Below, piece by piece: positions 1 through 7,877 of a stretch of DNA of 7,877 nt. Made by a program: the position numbers and the translations under genes. Where the stretch lies: positions 1 to 7,877 of the forward strand of contig JALGZO010000462.1 in NCBI GenBank assembly GCA_025774865.1, read 5' to 3'. Every line of letters begins with the position of its first letter. The stretch's first letter is position 1. This stretch comes from a bacterium (lineage in GTDB: Bacteria > ARS69). A model generated the notes under the pieces. That model was not told the origin of the DNA, searched no databases, and was given only the letters and a program-made list of their open reading frames with translations.

Positions 1-485
1 CCCGAGAGCGAACGCCGGGCGGTGACCGGGGCGAAGATCGCGATGCCCTTCTCCTCCGCGAGGTCGAGGTCTGGTCCGCTCCCGAGGTCCCTCAATTCGG
101 AGAGGAGCAGCGGTTCCAGAAGCTCCCCGGGTCGATCCAAGAGCCACCGGGTCCACGCGCCTCCGATCGCCTTGGCGACCGTCTCGGCGATGCCTTGGCT
201 GCGGACGAGAACGGGTTCTCGGCTCCGGACCTCGGGCAGTATCCAGAAGGCGCCCCGACTGCAGCCGAAGTGTCCCAGCAAATTGTAGAGAGCTGCGTCC
301 GCGATCTCGTAGAGATCCAGGCGGACGCTGAGCTCCCGGCTGAGCTCGAGGAGCGACAGAAGACTCAGGTCTCCGCTGGGACGGCGGAGAGCCGGCCGAC
401 CCTGGTCGATCTTGGCCGGGGCAGCCGGTTCCTTGGTCGGTCGATCCCGCCGCGGCGCGGGCCCGCGAGGGGGGAACGCCCTCAA
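1..485 (-). CDS. GAF-domain signalling protein, C-terminus beyond left edge
   Basis: This reading frame is open from 485 to the left edge (161 codons visible) with no stop, so the protein is cut by the window. Residues 1-37 are a Pro/Arg/Ala-rich low-complexity leader. From about residue 39 the pattern DLSLLSLLELSREL, then LYNLLGHFGCSRGAFWIL, and later AIFAPVTARRSLSG fits a GAF domain, a small-molecule-binding sensor fold. I chose a TTG start at 485-483 because it overlaps the STAS stop as TTGA, the usual coupled arrangement, and no ATG or GTG follows in frame before the GAF domain. A GAGG lies about ten bases upstream. Directly downstream of phosphatase and STAS genes, it may continue into another SpoIIE phosphatase, GGDEF or HD-GYP output domain; that part is not visible. 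The GAF call is fairly firm, the start less so. Confidence 0.72.
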   Translation of the reverse strand, partial: MRAFPPRGPAPRRDRPTKEPAAPAKIDQGRPALRRPSGDLSLLSLLELSRELSVRLDLYEIADAALYNLLGHFGCSRGAFWILPEVRSREPVLVRSQGIAETVAKAIGGAWTRWLLDRPGELLEPLLLSELRDLGSGPDLDLAEEKGIAIFAPVTARRSLS

Positions 486-835
486 GCCCCGATCGCCTCG
501 AGCGCCTCGGCCTCCGTGGTGCCGAGATTGAGGAACTGCGTGAGATTCAAGAGCTCCACGACGGACCGGACGGGATCGGAGAGGGCAACGAGGTGAACGC
601 TTCCGTCCGCATCCCCGAACTCCTCCGTGAGCGCCAGGAGTGTTCCCACCCCGCTCGACGCCACGAAGGTGACTTCGGACAGGTTGATCACGACGTTCTT
701 GGTTCCCGCGTCCTCCATCTCGCGACACGTGCGCAGCAGGGCCTGCGCGTTCCGGGCGTCGAGACGTCCGGTCAATCGCAGCACGACGGCTCCGTGGTCG
801 GTCGCCGCTTCCGTGATCGAGAACTCCCTAGCCAT
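482..835 (-). CDS. STAS-domain anti-sigma factor antagonist (RsbV/SpoIIAA type)
   Basis: This 117-residue protein is a single STAS domain of the normal length for cytoplasmic anti-anti-sigma factors. The beta strand VVLRLTGRLDA (17-27) opens the fold, NVVINLSEV (47-55) is the central strand, and VASSGVGTLLAL (58-69) holds the phosphorylation loop with candidate serines S60 and S61. In RsbV and SpoIIAA the matching serine is phosphorylated by a GHKL kinase and dephosphorylated by a SpoIIE/RsbU phosphatase. Both partner domains are encoded by the gene just upstream. The usual Asp before the Ser pair is Ala here, a tolerated variation among STAS proteins. The ATG at 835 has GGAGG at 845-849, nine bases away, and overlaps the upstream stop by 8 bases, suggesting translational coupling and matched amounts. 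The true target (sigma factor or another output) is not in the window. Confidence 0.93.
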   Translation of the reverse strand: MAREFSITEAATDHGAVVLRLTGRLDARNAQALLRTCREMEDAGTKNVVINLSEVTFVASSGVGTLLALTEEFGDADGSVHLVALSDPVRSVVELLNLTQFLNLGTTEAEALEAIGA

Positions 836-2855
836 GGGTGACTTCCTCCACCCGGATCTTCGCCGGATCGAACCCCAGGATCGTGACGTTCCCCGCCGGC
901 GTGTCGGGGTGGTAGGACACCCGGCTCATCGCGCCGTGAATGATCTCCAACCCGAGCCCCCGCCCACGACGCCGGACGGCGGGGTCCCGGAGATCGACGT
1001 TCGGCGGTCCGTCCGGCCGAAATGCGCGGCCCTGGTCCGCCAGAACGAAGATTCCGCTCGCTTTCGATCCATCGGCCGCTTCGGGGATCCACCAAAGGTC
1101 GAATCCCCGCGAGGAGTCCTCCCCGTAACCATGCTCGACGATGTTGGCACAGGCCTCGTACAGCCCCACCTCCGCCACGGCCACTTCTCGGGCGCAGAGC
1201 GCGCCGAGACCGGGACAAAGCCGCATCCAGGCCCGGAGATCCTCCAGCGCCTTGAGGTCGGCCCGGAGCCGAAGATGGCTCCCCTGGCGCCGGGCCCGGG
1301 CGAGCACCGCCTCCGCTGCCCCCGGCTCTCGGGGCGGGGCCGCCGGTTGCGCGGGCCCCACCACCAGGAGGGTCTCGTCGTCGTGCGGCGGGTGGTCCCC
1401 GGACCACCGTCGGACGTCCGCCCGGATGGCATCGAGGACGGCCCGACACCCCCGGGGCGCCGCGGCCACCGCCGTCGCCTCCAGCCGATCGAAGCCGAAC
1501 TGGTGCTCACCGGTGACGTCGAAGGCTTCGTTGATCCCGTCGGTGTACTGGAGAGCGAGATCGCCCGCGCGGAGCCTCACGGTCCGATCCCGGAGGGTCT
1601 TCGCGAACGCTCCGGTCCGGACCGCGCCAATCGGGATTCCCGACGTCCGATACCACTCGACCGAGCCCGTCGCGGCGCGCCAAACGACCAGCGGCGAGTG
1701 TCCGGCCGAAGCGAACTTCAGGGAGCCCGTGCGCGGATTGAGAATGGCGTAGAACATCGTGATGAACGTCCCCGGACGAAGTGAGTCGCGGAGGTTCTCT
1801 TCGAGGCGGACGAGCAGGGCCTTCGGCGACGTCACGTCTTCGCGGAACGCCCGCAAGAGCGCCGCCAACATCGAGGTCACGAGACATCCCGCGAGGCCCT
1901 TGCCCGACACATCGGCGATGGCGAGGGCGACGCGTCCGTCGGCCAGAGGGAAGATGTCGTAGAAGTCGCCGCCGACCTCCGCCGCGGCCTGGTGCGCTCC
2001 CTCGATCAGGAAGCGGTCCACCTTCAAGTCCCCGGACGGCAGAAGGGACGACTGAATCTCTCGCGCGAGCTCGACGTCGTGGGCGAGACGTTCCTTCTCG
2101 GCGCGCTCCACCTGCGCGTCCCGGAGTCGAGTCGACATCTCGTTCATCGTCTCGGCCAGCCGCGTGAGCTCCGTCCCTCCCGTCAGTCGCACCGGCGTTT
2201 CGAGATCGCCACGGCCAATGCGTTCGAGGCCCTCACGAAGCGCACCGATCGGCCGAAGCAGCAGGGAGACGAGGACCGTCGACGCCACGATGCCGGTCAC
2301 CAGGAGCGCCGCCATGAGCATGATCTGCTTGTGTCGGTTCTCGTCGATCAGGCCATCGAGGTAGGCCTTCCGCATCGCCACGAGCGCCGTGCCGATGCGC
2401 TCGCCTCCGGGCTGTCGCACCGGCGTGGCCGCGACGAGGAGAGCACCGCTCGTCGCGAACATTTCGCGGTCCCCGAGCTCGACGGCGTGCCCCTCCGCTT
2501 TGAGATTGCTGGGAAGCGCGAATTCTTCCCCGATCCTCCGCGCGTCGGCGTGTCCTCGGATGATCCCCGCGTGATCGACCACGACCGCGAACGCGAGCTC
2601 GGGCCGCTCGTCACGGACCTCGGAGAGGATCGGAGTGAGCATCAGCTCGGGGAACTCGCTGACGAGCGCTCTGGAGCTCGTCAGCGCGAGGTTTCTCGAT
2701 TCCAGCAACAACCGCGTGCGAAGCTCCCGGGCGAGCGCCTTCCTGGCGTCCCGTTCCGCGAGCCCCCCCACTCCGATGACCGAGACGGACGTGAGGGCGA
2801 TCGCGGCGCCGGTGAAGATCCAGCGAATGCTCAGAACCGGTGGCTTCCCGGGCAC
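828..2855 (-). CDS. Membrane sensor with HAMP, SpoIIE/RsbU PP2C phosphatase and RsbW-like ATPase domains
   Basis: The 675-residue product has a short cytoplasmic start, a membrane span (about 12-31), an extracytoplasmic region to about 177 with a Cache-like VVVDHAGIIRGHADARRIG stretch (91-109), a second span (178-199) and a HAMP domain (201-247). A helix with ELAREIQSSLLPS (262-274), typical of RsbU-type linkers, leads into the PP2C domain. There GGDFYD (295-300), DVSGKG (315-320), SAGHSP (383-388), YTDG (437-440) and DDET (492-495) supply the metal-binding aspartates, so the phosphatase looks intact. A GHKL ATPase follows: N-box EACAN..EHGY (567-577), LADQGRAF (605-612) and GRGLGLEII (631-639), as in RsbW/SpoIIAB serine kinases. 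Known family roles predict opposing phosphorylation and dephosphorylation of a STAS protein, here the overlapping downstream gene. The GTG start at 2855 is the first possible one after an in-frame stop; AGAGG sits only 3 bases from it, so the initiation site is weak. Confidence 0.93.
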   Translation of the reverse strand: MPGKPPVLSIRWIFTGAAIALTSVSVIGVGGLAERDARKALARELRTRLLLESRNLALTSSRALVSEFPELMLTPILSEVRDERPELAFAVVVDHAGIIRGHADARRIGEEFALPSNLKAEGHAVELGDREMFATSGALLVAATPVRQPGGERIGTALVAMRKAYLDGLIDENRHKQIMLMAALLVTGIVASTVLVSLLLRPIGALREGLERIGRGDLETPVRLTGGTELTRLAETMNEMSTRLRDAQVERAEKERLAHDVELAREIQSSLLPSGDLKVDRFLIEGAHQAAAEVGGDFYDIFPLADGRVALAIADVSGKGLAGCLVTSMLAALLRAFREDVTSPKALLVRLEENLRDSLRPGTFITMFYAILNPRTGSLKFASAGHSPLVVWRAATGSVEWYRTSGIPIGAVRTGAFAKTLRDRTVRLRAGDLALQYTDGINEAFDVTGEHQFGFDRLEATAVAAAPRGCRAVLDAIRADVRRWSGDHPPHDDETLLVVGPAQPAAPPREPGAAEAVLARARRQGSHLRLRADLKALEDLRAWMRLCPGLGALCAREVAVAEVGLYEACANIVEHGYGEDSSRGFDLWWIPEAADGSKASGIFVLADQGRAFRPDGPPNVDLRDPAVRRRGRGLGLEIIHGAMSRVSYHPDTPAGNVTILGFDPAKIRVEEVTHG

Positions 2856-2927: not shown

Positions 2928-3896
2928 TTACGAGTAGACGACGCGCGGTGCGAGGCCCCGATGGCCGGCGACCGGCGTGAGGAGCGCCTTGAGATAGGCC
3001 TGCGGGAAGTCCTCGAAGCGCAGGTCTTCCTGGAACGCCGCTTCGACGAGAGTGGAAGTGTCGTCGTCGCGGGAAAAGAACTCATTGAGGAACGTACGCA
3101 GGTCGGGGTGTGAATCGGTCTTGCCGAGGTAGAGCCCCTTCGAGAAGAAATCCGACGTCAGCACGTAGGCCTCCTGACTGCCGTCCGCGACGAGAACGAT
3201 CGAGCCCTTCGGCCGCACGGCGGTCTGAGCCGTCGCGAACGCGGCTGCCGTGTTCGCGCAGTCGAAGACGGTCTGGAACCGATAGCGTCCCGGATCTGTC
3301 GCGATCTCCACCGCGGCCGGAAACTGGATTTCTTGGATCATCTCCCGCCGGGACTCGTTCGTCTCGACGAGACGGATCGAGCCCTGGGTCGTCAGGCCGA
3401 GCTCCCACGCGGTCAGCACCCCGAGGAGTCCGCCTCCCAGGATGAGGCAATCCTCACCGGTCTCCACGGCGGCGAGATCGATCGCGTTCCGGGCGTCGGC
3501 GGAAAGCACGCCGAGCATCGCGAGGTCGTTGGAAACGCCGGCCGGGACCCGGATGAAACGATGGTAGGGAATCAAGGCGAAGTCGCGGTGACCCAGCACG
3601 GCCACTCCCCGCTCGCCGATCAGAGTTCGGTCCCCGGCGTCGATGATGTCGACGACGTTCAGGTAACCAGGCTGGTACGGATACGAGTCCGCCGGCACGG
3701 CGGGAGAGAGACCTTGGATCAGAGTGCGCTCGGTTCCGGGGCTGACCGCGCCGACGATCGTGCGGACGAGGATTTCCCCCACCCCCGGGCTCGGCAGAGT
3801 GGTGATCGTGCGGTGCAGCTGGCCGGGCGCGTCGAGCGTCCACTCGACCGCTCGCACCGTGCTCACATCCGCCGCTTGCGTCGTTTCCTCATCCAC
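2928..3896 (-). CDS. Zinc-independent MDR-family NAD(P)-dependent dehydrogenase, substrate unknown
   Basis: The 322-residue product is a medium-chain dehydrogenase/reductase of the group with an SPGTE motif (52-56) in the GroES-like N-terminal half, a group that includes BchC-like and other COG1063-related proteins. The Rossmann half begins with LILGGGLLGVLTAWELG (151-167), the nucleotide-binding glycine loop, and LVETNESRR (176-184) puts an acidic residue (E178) at the end of the second strand, which suggests NAD over NADP. The only cysteines are C150 and C213, neither placed as a zinc ligand, so both catalytic and structural zinc sites appear absent. I place the start at GTG 3896 because a 9-base Shine-Dalgarno match lies 5 bases before it; an earlier in-frame GTG at 3905 is inside that site. 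It begins 40 bases after the kinase stop, so co-transcription is likely. The substrate cannot be named from sequence. Confidence 0.85.
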   Translation of the reverse strand: MDEETTQAADVSTVRAVEWTLDAPGQLHRTITTLPSPGVGEILVRTIVGAVSPGTERTLIQGLSPAVPADSYPYQPGYLNVVDIIDAGDRTLIGERGVAVLGHRDFALIPYHRFIRVPAGVSNDLAMLGVLSADARNAIDLAAVETGEDCLILGGGLLGVLTAWELGLTTQGSIRLVETNESRREMIQEIQFPAAVEIATDPGRYRFQTVFDCANTAAAFATAQTAVRPKGSIVLVADGSQEAYVLTSDFFSKGLYLGKTDSHPDLRTFLNEFFSRDDDTSTLVEAAFQEDLRFEDFPQAYLKALLTPVAGHRGLAPRVVYS

Positions 3897-3901
3897 GGTT
3901 C

Positions 3902-3910
3902 TCACCTCCT
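3902..3910 (-). promoter_or_regulatory. Strong Shine-Dalgarno site that fixes the dehydrogenase start
   Basis: AGGAGGTGA on the minus strand matches the usual anti-Shine-Dalgarno complement over nine bases. Eight bases separate its GGAGG core from GTG at 3896. The site overlaps the GTG at 3905, which therefore cannot be the start. It is the strongest ribosome site I found in the window, which suggests efficient translation of the dehydrogenase. Confidence 0.8.
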
Positions 3911-3936: not shown

Positions 3937-5274
3937 TCAGTGCACGTCGTAGTCGCTCCCGCCGATGAATTCGCGCAGGAGCGAAGTTCCCGGGACGAGC
4001 GAGTCGTCCTCCACGCTCTCGATCGACGATAACAGATCGTGAATGCGCCCGGCCCGAATGAAGCCGTCGAGGCGCTTCTCGTCTTTCCGCCAACGATCGA
4101 GAAACGTCGGAAAGCAGGAATACAGATTGAGCTTTAAGTACGGAAGCTCGTAGGCCAGCGAGCTGTTCACGATGAAATCGGCGTAGCCCTGGTACGGAAT
4201 GATGTGCTTGAGCTCGCTCCGGCGTACGTAGTGCCAGTGCAGGATCGTCTTCTCCGGCGAGTAAGCGCGGTGCTGAGAGTCTCGGATCATCCGACGGAGC
4301 AGCCTCACGTCGGCCCACCTGACGTACTCGCCGTCATGGCCCTTCAGCTGCCCGATCGTCTCGATGTAGATGCGAAACTTGTGCTCATCGGGGACGCTCC
4401 TGGTGAGTCCTCGGTACAAACCGTGCAGCGTGTCGAGGAGGATCACGCTGCCCTTCTCGCACTCGAAACGCATGGTCTCCTCGAGACGGACACCGGCTTT
4501 GAAGTCGTACTTCGGCATGTCGACACCACGCCCGGTGTCGAGCTCGGCCAGGTGTCGATTGATCAGCGGAAGGTCCATCGCTTCCGGCGTCTCGAAGTCG
4601 TAGTCCCCGAACTCGTCCTTGGGATGCATCTCGAGGTCGAAGAAGTAGTTGTCGAGAGACATCGGGATCACGGGGACGCCCCGCTCTTCCAGTCGTTGCT
4701 TGAGCTTGTGGGTCGTGGTCGTCTTGCCGGAGGAGCTCGGTCCCGCGACGATGACGAAGCGAAGCTCCTCCCGACGCTCGAGAATGGCGCGAGCCGCCTC
4801 GTCCAGGATCGCTTCGTAGCGCGCGTCGGCGGCCCGGATGAGATCGGGGAGGCGTCCGCCCCTGATGGTCGCGTTCAGTCTGTCCACGGTGTGACACTCG
4901 TGGTCGACGGCCCAGTCGAGCGCTTGCCACATCGTCTTGTACGGGATGTTTTCGATCTCGCGCTGCTGCTGACGGCGGCGCATTCTCGAGCGATCGTGTC
5001 GGTACACGATGTAGGACTTCGCGGTGCTGGCGTGGCCGTTGTCGATGAGCACCCGCTCCGCGATGTCCTGAATGTCCTCGACAGTCGGAGGCATGTCGTC
5101 GGAGTAGGTCTTCGCGAGAGTGTGCTCGACCTGCTCCGCCAGACGCTCGGAGAGCGAGCGATCGTGGCCGCCGATCGCGGCCGCCGCCTTGTAGATCGCG
5201 ACCGTGATCTTGTCGCGATCGTACGGAACAGCCTCGCCGGTCCGCTTGACGACCTGGGTGATCGCGGGGGTCAT
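3937..5274 (-). CDS. ATP-cone domain fused to uridine-kinase-like P-loop kinase
   Basis: The 445-residue product starts with an ATP-cone (about 6-95; VVKRTGEAVPYDRDKI at 8-23, then YIVYRHDRSR at 88-97), the adenine-nucleotide-binding regulatory module of ribonucleotide reductases, NrdR and some archaeal 2-phosphoglycerate kinases. A helical linker (100-170) leads to a kinase domain with Walker A GPSSSGKT (178-185), SLDNYFFD (206-213), YDFETPEAMDLPL (225-237), the strand VILLDTLHGLY (277-287) and a lid-like RRMIRDSQHRA (327-337). These fit the uridine kinase / phosphoribulokinase superfamily, nearest to the long uridine-kinase-like proteins that in Firmicutes and Thermotoga carry ThrRS-like N-terminal domains. 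True uridine kinase activity is unproven; the acceptor could be another sugar, nucleoside or small acid. The ATG at 5274 is 38 bases after the citrate synthase stop, lacks a clear Shine-Dalgarno site, and is the first start matching the conserved domain. Confidence 0.88.
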   Translation of the reverse strand: MTPAITQVVKRTGEAVPYDRDKITVAIYKAAAAIGGHDRSLSERLAEQVEHTLAKTYSDDMPPTVEDIQDIAERVLIDNGHASTAKSYIVYRHDRSRMRRRQQQREIENIPYKTMWQALDWAVDHECHTVDRLNATIRGGRLPDLIRAADARYEAILDEAARAILERREELRFVIVAGPSSSGKTTTTHKLKQRLEERGVPVIPMSLDNYFFDLEMHPKDEFGDYDFETPEAMDLPLINRHLAELDTGRGVDMPKYDFKAGVRLEETMRFECEKGSVILLDTLHGLYRGLTRSVPDEHKFRIYIETIGQLKGHDGEYVRWADVRLLRRMIRDSQHRAYSPEKTILHWHYVRRSELKHIIPYQGYADFIVNSSLAYELPYLKLNLYSCFPTFLDRWRKDEKRLDGFIRAGRIHDLLSSIESVEDDSLVPGTSLLREFIGGSDYDVH

Positions 5275-5312: not shown

Positions 5313-6461
5313 CTAGCGCTCGTCGATCGGGATGTAGGGTGCGTCGTGCGGACCCAGATACTCCTGGCGGGGACGGAAGATCCGGTTGTCCTGCATCTGC
5401 TCCAGGTAGTGGCCGAGGTACCCGGCCACGCGGGCTATCCCGAAGATCGGGGTGAAGAGGTCCCGCGCGATTCCCATCTTCAGGTAGACGGTGCCCGAGA
5501 AGAAATCGACGTTCGGGTAGATGCCTTTCGGACCCAGCTTCTCGGCCGCAGCCTTCTCGATCTCGACGGCAATGTCGTAGAGGTCCGTGCTGCCGAGCTC
5601 CTCGAATACTCGTGCGCCGAGCTTCTGCAGGGCGTACGCCCGCGGGTCCTTCACGTGGTAGACGCGGTGACCGAGGCCCATGATCTTCTTCTTTTCGGCG
5701 ACGGCATTCTCGAACCAGGCTCGCGCCTTCGACGCGTGGCCGATCTCGTCGAGCATGTCGAGAACACGCTCGTTCGCGCCGCCGTGGAGCGGACCACCGA
5801 GCGAGCCGAGCGCCGCCGAGACTGCCGAGTAAGGATCCGCTTCGGAGGAACTCACGACCCGGCACGTGAACGTGGACGCGTTCTGCGTGTGCTCGGCGTG
5901 GAGGATCATGGCCACGTCCAGGGTGCGCGCGACGATCTCCGCCGGCTCCTCGCCGTTCAGCATCCAGAGGAAGTTGCCGGCGTGGCCCAGGTCGTCTCGC
6001 GGGGCGATCGGATCTTGCCCCTTCGCGCGCCGCGCGATGGCGGCCAGCATCGTCGCGACTTGCGCGATGATGCGATGCGCGGAGATCTCGCGCTCGCGCG
6101 CATCGGTGGCGCCGGTGCGCGGGTAGTAGAGCCCCAGGGCCGCGACGATCGTCTGCAGCGCCGCCATCGGGTGTCCGTCCTTCGGCATCGCGCCGATCAT
6201 CGCGAGAAGCTCTGGCCGCACCTCCCGGTGAGAGCGGAGCGAGCTCTCGAACTCCTGGAGCTCCCCTCGCCTCGGCAGATGACCGTACAGGAGAAGGAAC
6301 GCGGTCTCCTCGAACGTGCTGTGCTCGGCGAGATTCTCGATCCGGATCCCCCGGTACTCGAGGATGCCGTTCTCGCCGTCCACGAAGCCGACGTGGGACT
6401 GCGCCGCGATAACGCCGGCCAGGCCGGGGACGAAGGGGTTAGCGGTCGCCTGCTCAGGCAT
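5313..6461 (-). CDS. gltA: Citrate synthase
   Basis: The 382-residue product joins acetyl-CoA and oxaloacetate to give citrate at the entry of the TCA cycle, in the cytoplasm. The catalytic triad is visible: His226 in GGPLHGGANE, His265 in GLGHRVY and Asp319 in NVDFFSG. HAEHTQNAST (188-197) and RPRQEYLGP (365-373) are further family signatures, the last with an Arg used in citrate binding. Its length fits the short class that lacks the extra N-terminal domain of the NADH-regulated Gram-negative hexameric enzymes. The ATG at 6461 is chosen over upstream in-frame starts at 6530 and 6500 because GGAGG lies 5 bases before it and the extra residues look unlike the family. 2-Methylcitrate synthase is a close relative and cannot be fully excluded, but no prp genes are nearby. 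The kinase follows after 38 bases, so the two are probably one transcript. Confidence 0.95.
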   Translation of the reverse strand: MPEQATANPFVPGLAGVIAAQSHVGFVDGENGILEYRGIRIENLAEHSTFEETAFLLLYGHLPRRGELQEFESSLRSHREVRPELLAMIGAMPKDGHPMAALQTIVAALGLYYPRTGATDAREREISAHRIIAQVATMLAAIARRAKGQDPIAPRDDLGHAGNFLWMLNGEEPAEIVARTLDVAMILHAEHTQNASTFTCRVVSSSEADPYSAVSAALGSLGGPLHGGANERVLDMLDEIGHASKARAWFENAVAEKKKIMGLGHRVYHVKDPRAYALQKLGARVFEELGSTDLYDIAVEIEKAAAEKLGPKGIYPNVDFFSGTVYLKMGIARDLFTPIFGIARVAGYLGHYLEQMQDNRIFRPRQEYLGPHDAPYIPIDER

Positions 6462-6466
6462 CGGAA

Positions 6467-6471
6467 CCTCC
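6467..6471 (-). promoter_or_regulatory. Ribosome binding site of citrate synthase
   Basis: GGAGG lies five bases before the ATG at 6461. It decides that start against two in-frame upstream candidates (6500 and 6530), which lack a comparable site. Confidence 0.75.
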
Positions 6472-6506
6472 GTGGTGGAACGCGCGTCAGGGGTGCCCAT
6501 GGCGCA

Positions 6507-6526
6507 AAAGCCGGCACCGCGGCCTT
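6507..6526 (-). terminator. Weak terminator-like hairpin after the carbamoyltransferase-like gene
   Basis: On the minus strand AAGGCCG, a six-base loop and CGGCTTT can pair over seven positions with one G-T wobble, with one more T after the stem. It lies about 60 bases past the stop at 6588. The stem uses up most of the T-run, so termination would be weak. It may equally be chance pairing in GC-rich sequence. Confidence 0.25.
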
Positions 6527-6528
6527 CC

Positions 6529-6558
6529 AATCTCGCGTGAAGGGGCCCTCTCCGTCAA
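6529..6558 (-). promoter_or_regulatory. Possible sigma-70-type promoter for the citrate synthase transcript
   Basis: On the minus strand TTGACG (6558-6553) matches five of six -35 consensus bases. After an 18-base spacer, GAGATT (6534-6529) matches only three of six -10 bases. It lies in the longest intergenic gap and would give a leader of about 60 bases before the citrate synthase ATG. Transcription would begin inside the hairpin described at 6507-6526, so the two proposals do not fit together easily. Confidence 0.3.
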
Positions 6559-6587: not shown

Positions 6588-7877
6588 TCAGACCGGCGTG
6601 GGCGCCGATCGGGGCGAGCGCAGAAGGTAGGGTCCGAGCCGGAGCGCGTCGAGGGCGAGCGCGCCCCAGGCTTCGTAGGCGTCCCCGGGAGAGCAGGCGA
6701 CCGGCTCGCCGGCCCGAGCCAGCGGGCGCGCGGCGAGGGCAGGAGGCTCGCCGTGCCCCTCCAGTGCCTCGAGGACCGCGTGCAGCTCGCGATGGGCGTC
6801 GCGGTCGGCCAGGAACACGGGCTGGAGATGCGACGTCGCCGGCGCCACGCCGCACCGCTCCCGCCAGGGGCCGCGGACGACGGCATCGAGGAAGGCGGGC
6901 ACCTCCGTGTGTTCGAGCTCGAGTATCTCGCTCGCGAGCTCCTTGGGGACGACGAGGGAATCGGAATCCGTCAGAGGAGCCGAGGAGGTGGGCCGCCGGA
7001 GAGTCGAGCGCGTCGCAGTCGCGTCCTCAGCGAGATCGAGTCGTCCCGCGAACCACGCGAGGCGGAGGCCCCCCACGAGGGAATCGGTGGCCAGCGAGGT
7101 CCGCTCCTCGGTGGTGAGCTCCGTGGAATCGATACCATGCGAGCGAAGGAACGTCCGGATCTCGTGCGCGTTGTAGCCGGGTCCCGGGGCCGTACCGGGT
7201 CGCTCGCGACGCGCCCCTTCACCCGCGGTGGGAGCGCCCGATTGCAGCCACACGTCGAACGCGGCGCCGATCGCTTCGGCGCCTCCGCCAGCCGCGGGGT
7301 GGATCCAGAGGTCCGCGAACCCGGCGTCGCGCCGGACGGTCCCGACGATCCCCCGCTCCGCGGCGAGCGGCCCCCCGAGCGCGAATGCGTCGGCCCCGGT
7401 CTCCTCGTGCAACGAGTGCACGAGGGGTCCGATCCCCTCGAACGGCGCCTCGAGTGCACGCACCGGCTCGAGTGCGGCGCCGCGCCCGCGCCAGAGAGAC
7501 GCGTTCGCGCCGGCGCCGAGGACGAGCACCGCCGCATCCGGAAGTGGTGAGGTGTAGTACGCCCCCGCCGCGTGGGCGCGCGAGGCCGCGACGAACCGCA
7601 CCGGTGTCGAAGGGTCGAGCTCTGCGGAAACGAGGTCGGCCACGGTCTGCTTCGGTCCGAGCCAGCGGCGAACCCGTTCCTTCAGGTTCGCGGTCTCGCC
7701 GGAATCGGAGTCCGGGAGATCGGTGCCACCCGCGAATGCGACGGCCGACACGTCGTCGGGGCCGAGCTTGCCGGCGCGGAGGCAGTAGGCGATCGATTCG
7801 TACGGGAAATCCGAATCGCCGAGCCGGCGACTGAATCGATCCTCGCGGGATGCGGCCACGACCCGGCCATCGCGCAG
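6588..7877 (-). CDS. Divergent NodU/CmcH carbamoyltransferase-like protein, N-terminus beyond right edge
   Basis: The frame is open to the right edge (429 codons visible, no start), and the GTG at 7859 lies inside conserved sequence, so the true start is outside. RVVAASREDRFSRRLGDSDFPY opens the visible part (5-26) and matches the N-terminal ASKHA-fold half of O-carbamoyltransferases, which transfer carbamoyl from carbamoyl phosphate through carbamoyl-adenylate. Other anchors are RAHAAGAYYTSP (100-111), PAAGGGAEAIGAAF (194-207), GPGYNAHEIRTFLRSHG (232-248), AGRLDLAEDATATRSTL (277-293) and LALDALRLGPYLL (407-419). Against family motifs as I know them, the first His of the metal-binding HxxxH is Ala, the Asp of the following VDG strand and the Asp of AAGD are Gly, GRMEFGPRALGNRS is largely lost, and NTSFN is absent. 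Roughly 150 residues normally found before the LxGGxxxN block are also missing. It may be a non-catalytic homologue, possibly paired with an active copy upstream. Family membership is good; activity is doubtful. Confidence 0.78.
   Translation of the reverse strand: MRDGRVVAASREDRFSRRLGDSDFPYESIAYCLRAGKLGPDDVSAVAFAGGTDLPDSDSGETANLKERVRRWLGPKQTVADLVSAELDPSTPVRFVAASRAHAAGAYYTSPLPDAAVLVLGAGANASLWRGRGAALEPVRALEAPFEGIGPLVHSLHEETGADAFALGGPLAAERGIVGTVRRDAGFADLWIHPAAGGGAEAIGAAFDVWLQSGAPTAGEGARRERPGTAPGPGYNAHEIRTFLRSHGIDSTELTTEERTSLATDSLVGGLRLAWFAGRLDLAEDATATRSTLRRPTSSAPLTDSDSLVVPKELASEILELEHTEVPAFLDAVVRGPWRERCGVAPATSHLQPVFLADRDAHRELHAVLEALEGHGEPPALAARPLARAGEPVACSPGDAYEAWGALALDALRLGPYLLRSPRSAPTPV

Follow-up and report, generated by a model that had tools for sequence, protein, structure and literature searches.

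The gene at the center of this analysis, here called cone-kinase, encodes a protein in which an ATP-cone is followed by a uridine-kinase-like P-loop kinase domain, and it lies between genes for citrate synthase and a BchC-like medium-chain dehydrogenase (Table 1; positions are those of the window, the whole stretch of 7,877 nucleotides). Translation gave a reading frame free of internal stops, and alignment placed its start at the same position as in relatives. An earlier note on this DNA had pointed to the adjoining citrate synthase gene and to a cone at residues 6 to 95 ahead of the kinase; both observations held, the Pfam match to the cone agreeing to within one residue. Farther out, a gene for a Cache-HAMP-SpoIIE-HATPase sensor phosphatase overlaps that of a STAS anti-sigma antagonist, the two forming a partner-switching pair, and a carbamoyltransferase-like gene with partial domain matches only is cut by the contig end. 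A defense role for cone-kinase was rejected, PADLOC having returned weak P-loop matches only.

Table 1. Features of the window, with the evidence for each
Feature	Position	Strand	Evidence or remark
Cone-kinase gene (ATP-cone and uridine-kinase-like kinase)	3937..5274	-	445 aa; ATG at 5274, stop ends at 3937
ATP-cone domain, residues 7-96	4987..5256	-	Pfam PF03477, E 2.1e-22; fold match to 5olk
Helical linker, residues 104-170	4765..4965	-	AlphaFold2 helices 112-124, 130-138, 142-166
P-loop kinase domain, residues 175-371	4162..4752	-	Pfam PF00485, E 7.6e-20; fold matches
Walker A GPSSSGKTT, residues 178-186	4717..4743	-	alignment of relatives
C-terminal helices and conserved LREFIGGS tail, residues 376-445	3940..4149	-	homology, alignment, AlphaFold2
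Citrate synthase	5313..6530	-	439 bits to PF00285; upstream of cone-kinase, 38 bp gap
BchC-like medium-chain dehydrogenase	2928..3905	-	TIGR01202, E 5.5e-18, below cut-off; downstream, 31 bp gap
Cache-HAMP-SpoIIE-HATPase sensor phosphatase	482..2855	-	overlaps STAS gene
Carbamoyltransferase-like protein	6588..7877	-	cut by contig end

An ATP-cone joined to a P-loop kinase domain

The cone scored 79.9 bits against the Pfam profile PF03477 (cut-off 25.8). Both domain folds were recovered by fold search from a monomeric AlphaFold2 model (mean pLDDT 88.6, pTM 0.73), the cone region matching the ATP-cones of NrdB, NrdD, and NrdA with Z values of 12 to 16, including that of the NrdB structure 5olk (Z 16.0, 97 residues, 1.7 Å). 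Among solved structures, its sequence is nearest to the cones of PaNrdA and LbNrdB, and it also matches the dATP-binding cone of PcNrdD. Residues K10, R11, G13, E66, Q69, D70, Y91, R92, and R99 are invariant in an alignment of 63 relatives. R99 aligns with Arg102 of LbNrdB (chain and entry numbering being brought into register through the fold and sequence matches), a residue that contacts the γ-phosphates of dATP, and the PaNrdA and LbNrdB cones hold two dATP molecules each (PMC5794259). K10 and K/R22 align with K50 and K62 of NrdR, mutants of which are impaired in nucleotide binding (PMC9110341), and the adenine-contacting E56 of NrdR corresponds to Val16, the equivalent residue of PaNrdA likewise being valine. 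With these contact residues conserved, the cone is likely to bind ATP or dATP. Cone-kinase has the same sensor domain, nucleotide-contact residues included, as the cone-regulated PaNrdA, LbNrdB, PcNrdD, and NrdR, but its output domain is a P-loop kinase, whereas that of the ribonucleotide reductases is the reductase and that of NrdR a DNA-binding Zn-ribbon.

The kinase domain matched PF00485 (PRK/uridine kinase) with 72 bits (cut-off 22), and its fold matches to P-loop kinases lay at Z 14.5 to 17.5, with D-glycerate 3-kinase at Z 13. The Z values of uridine-cytidine kinase UCK2 (1uej; Z 16.1, 2.8 Å, 185 residues, 29% identity) and of type I pantothenate kinases (Z 16 to 17.5; for 5xlv, Z 17.5, 3.5 Å, 216 residues, 16% identity) are tied, and fold does not rank pantothenate kinase above UCK2. 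The best curated profiles for the protein were those of uridine kinase, udk (E 8e-28 and 3e-26), although its scores missed the NCBIfam equivalog cut-offs (97.3 against 180 bits and 92.2 against 220.3 bits).

We take His117 and Arg176 of UCK2 to be base-reading, Asp62 to be catalytic, and Arg166, Arg169, and Arg174 to be lid arginines, and we mapped these positions by sequence alignment. The Walker A motif (GPSSSGKT, against GG(S/T)GSGKT in udk), D208 (UCK2 D62), and R328, R331, and R336 (R166, R169, and R174) are invariant in the cone-kinase clade. In contrast, the His117 position is glycine (Gly261) in all 64 cone-kinases and histidine in 12 of 14 udk proteins, and the Arg176 position (residue 338) is tyrosine in 45 cone-kinases, leucine in 17, histidine in two, and never the arginine found in 14 of 14 udk proteins; Asp84 of UCK2 is replaced by glutamate. 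As judged from the alignment, the phosphate-transfer machinery of uridine-cytidine kinase, like its fold, is kept and the base-reading residues are lost. Relative to udk and UCK2, cone-kinase also adds the ATP-cone, the linker at residues 119-170, and the C-terminal helices with their LREFIGGS tail, which are absent from udk.

A sister family of ThrRS-like long kinases

The earlier note had held that related long uridine-kinase-like proteins carry ThrRS-like N-terminal domains, and such proteins proved to be the nearest relatives: residues 119-442 matched them with E values of 1e-51 to 1e-62, whereas matches to true udk reached only about 1e-12 to 1e-19. In a phylogenetic tree, the cone proteins (98/94) were sister to the ThrRS-like proteins (98/97), the two joining at 96/94 with udk outside. 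The homology runs from the linker at about residue 119 to the C-terminus and takes in the GPSSSGKT Walker A motif, the Gly/Tyr base site, and the SxLREFIGGS-type tail with its preceding helices. The ThrRS-like proteins have glycine at the His117 position in 10 of 10 cases and tyrosine at the Arg176 position in 8 of 10, the latter position being Tyr, Leu, His, or Asn across both families. The two families differ at the N-terminus, where cone-kinase has the ATP-cone and its sisters a TGS/ThrRS-like module, and at D281, which is glutamate in the ThrRS-like kinases; both proteins often occur in one genome. Three Acidobacteriota loci (L140-L142) contain ThrRS-like kinase open frames of about 1165 codons with an extra N-terminal part; in L140 the TGS-like match spans 256-313 and the kinase 542-739.

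One member of the sister family has been assayed: Thermotoga maritima TmUK formed no UMP, either full length or truncated, and in the presence of uridine it only hydrolyzed ATP (PMC10248530). The lost base-reading residues and the inactive Thermotoga relative together make "uridine kinase" a probable misnomer for cone-kinase. The window's own genome also encodes a true udk (contig C517), as do many other genomes, and these three observations combined favor a different acceptor, probably neither uridine nor cytidine, as the most likely case. In many genomes udk, a ThrRS-like kinase, and cone-kinase are found side by side, which argues for a distinct job for cone-kinase.

Distribution and gene neighborhood

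In a scan with each species represented by one genome, 116 relatives of cone-kinase were confirmed, of which 80 were kept, labeled Acidobacteriota, Anaerolineae, Ignavibacteria, Kiritimatiellae/Verrucomicrobia/Lentisphaerae, Cloacimonadota, Wallbacteria, and Neomarinimicrobiota; the closest relatives in named genomes were 64 to 68% identical over nearly the full length. The ATP-cone and the kinase domain were both present in 63 of 63 aligned family proteins from several phyla, and these matches, together with the near-full-length relatives, show that the two-domain fusion is not a chance one. Its distribution in bacteria is patchy: in genome samples, each given the phylum label of the locus at its center, it occurred in 2 of 151 genomes (Chloroflexota) and 2 of 199 (Acidobacteriota). 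In the class that includes the Melioribacter genome G018 it was present in 9 of 61 genomes, and in that of the Kiritimatiellae genome G009 in about 38 of 57. Any ATP-cone was found in only 9 of the 61 genomes of the G018 class and all nine carry cone-kinase; no NrdR or reductase cone was found in the 61, some of which, as drafts, may miss genes. Cone-kinase is the only ATP-cone protein found in G013, G017, G018, G380, G382, G390, G400, G427, and G429, and genomes of the window's family have cone-kinase and one other cone protein of NrdR-like length only. These inventories suggest that the switch works apart from reductase here.

Citrate synthase precedes cone-kinase in four of the five genera of the window's family (G000-G003) with gaps of 38 to 99 bp, so the pairing recurs in three genera besides that of the window. 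The BchC-like gene follows cone-kinase in G000, G001, G002, and the fifth genus, G004, whereas the contig ends in G003; G004 keeps this gene without citrate synthase. The G004 copy of cone-kinase (L095, 5085-6354) is broken by a deletion across the Walker A motif and a stop, and in this draft assembly it may be a pseudogene or an assembly fault. The related family neighborhoods lack the window's SpoIIE and STAS genes, which makes the trio of citrate synthase, cone-kinase, and BchC-like genes a conserved unit within one family. The carbamoyltransferase-like gene is likewise not kept, except in G003, where a 40% relative lies near the cone-kinase gene. Outside the family, citrate synthase was near cone-kinase in none of 80 loci (fetched flanks of up to 5 kb), and we therefore rejected it as a general partner: the citrate synthase neighbor belongs to a single bacterial family and is not the key to function.

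The widest conserved context is dnaG-rpoD-cone-kinase in Kiritimatiellae and relatives. There, rpoD is upstream in 31 loci (L010, L046, L157-L176, and others), in 30 of them on the same strand and 9 to 294 bp away, dnaG precedes rpoD in the eight loci where the stretch reaches that far, and an AMP-binding ligase gene follows cone-kinase in many. In this arrangement, a macromolecular-synthesis operon is joined by the gene for a putatively nucleotide-sensing kinase. Other phyla lack the rpoD link; other lineages have a pairing with a TadA-like deaminase, and no neighbor was common to all lineages among the loci compared. A cytidine/dCMP deaminase partner in Ignavibacteria was considered and set aside, since the best profile for the protein was TadA, below its cut-off, and was uninformative.

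Possible functions of cone-kinase

We consider it reasonably probable that ATP/dATP gates cone-kinase and that it phosphorylates an acceptor other than a pyrimidine. We infer that its N-terminal cone would take up ATP or dATP, probably as a pair of nucleotides on the pattern of P. aeruginosa NrdA, L. blandensis NrdB, and NrdR, and that nucleotide at the cone would alter either how the protein oligomerizes or how ordered its linker is, a change that would in turn switch the kinase active site on or off. The kinase domain would phosphorylate a small-molecule acceptor, our best guess being a ribosyl compound or another hydroxylated one.

Nucleotide salvage, which the earlier note had raised, would make cone-kinase a uridine/cytidine kinase with ATP/dATP feedback. 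The udk profiles, even below their cut-offs, and the UCK2 fold are consistent with this, as are four Ignavibacteria genomes (G013, G016, G017, and G018) in which cone-kinase is accompanied by no other PRK-family kinase, but the loss of the base-reading His and Arg throughout the clade, the presence of a true udk in the window's genome and many others, and the failure of the sister Thermotoga enzyme to make UMP (PMC10248530) render it quite unlikely. That the same relative hydrolyzed ATP without phosphorylating uridine (PMC10248530) means that the branch may consist of regulatory ATPases rather than kinases. Cone-kinase would then serve growth control as a switch that lacks a small-molecule acceptor: the cone would sense adenine nucleotides, ATP would be hydrolyzed by the P-loop domain, and the protein would act on a partner, for example the replication or transcription machinery, as its place after rpoD (and dnaG) in the Kiritimatiellae group might suggest. 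We regard this as rather unlikely: the invariance of the catalytic Asp and of the lid arginines points to an acceptor that receives the phosphate, operon membership by itself is no proof of contact, and the rpoD link does not extend to other phyla.

Control of carbon flux, also proposed in the earlier note, would have cone-kinase act with citrate synthase as a TCA-cycle regulator or accessory enzyme, possibly in one lineage only. The gene order kept in four genera, with close spacing and without the flanking SpoIIE, STAS, and (G003 excepted) carbamoyltransferase-like genes, speaks for it; set against the absence of citrate synthase from all 80 loci outside the family, the G004 locus, and the rpoD/dnaG or TadA-like deaminase pairings of other lineages, it is very unlikely, and as a general clue the proposal is not supported. 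Phosphorylation of another acid or alcohol, namely pantothenate, glycerate, or 2-phosphoglycerate, appears highly improbable. The pantothenate kinase and D-glycerate 3-kinase folds equal or approach that of UCK2 in Z value, but sequence identity is higher to UCK2 than to pantothenate kinase, and His177 of pantothenate kinase is not conserved. A pantothenate kinase role argued from the lack of another such enzyme was unsupported, since 16 of the 23 genomes tested, that of the window among them, encode a type III pantothenate kinase. The parallel with archaeal 2-phosphoglycerate kinase (PRK04220) drawn in the earlier note stands for domain layout, an ATP-cone and then a P-loop kinase, the archaeal enzyme reportedly beginning with the cone too, but its profile NF003259 matched cone-kinase weakly and at residues 36-96 only (E 0.043; 13.2 against 343 bits), with no match to the kinase part.

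To our knowledge, ATP-cones have been studied almost solely in ribonucleotide reductases and NrdR. The parts of cone-kinase are known and their combination appears to be new; a search of the available literature found no study of an ATP-cone fused to a uridine-kinase-like domain, an architecture that InterPro may list, and the family appears unstudied. A gated kinase of this kind, spread over several phyla and the sole ATP-cone protein found in one sampled class, would show that the switch controls other metabolism. It is conceivable, if doubtful, that the ATP-cone has in this family a third output, in addition to ribonucleotide reduction and repression by NrdR. Cone-kinase would then be a metabolic kinase switched by dATP/ATP and acting on a new acceptor, a checkpoint of nucleotide status whose gene neighbors are dnaG-rpoD or, in a different lineage, citrate synthase, and which is the sole protein with an ATP-cone in some Ignavibacteria-type genomes. 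Proteins annotated as uridine kinase throughout the cone-kinase/ThrRS-like branch are probably misnamed, and the branch offers two testable sister families. A further PRK-type architecture was seen in two Wallbacteria-type genomes (L120 and L122, in G014 and G015), where the kinase is fused to a CYTH domain in proteins of 558-559 aa that resemble plant TTM1.
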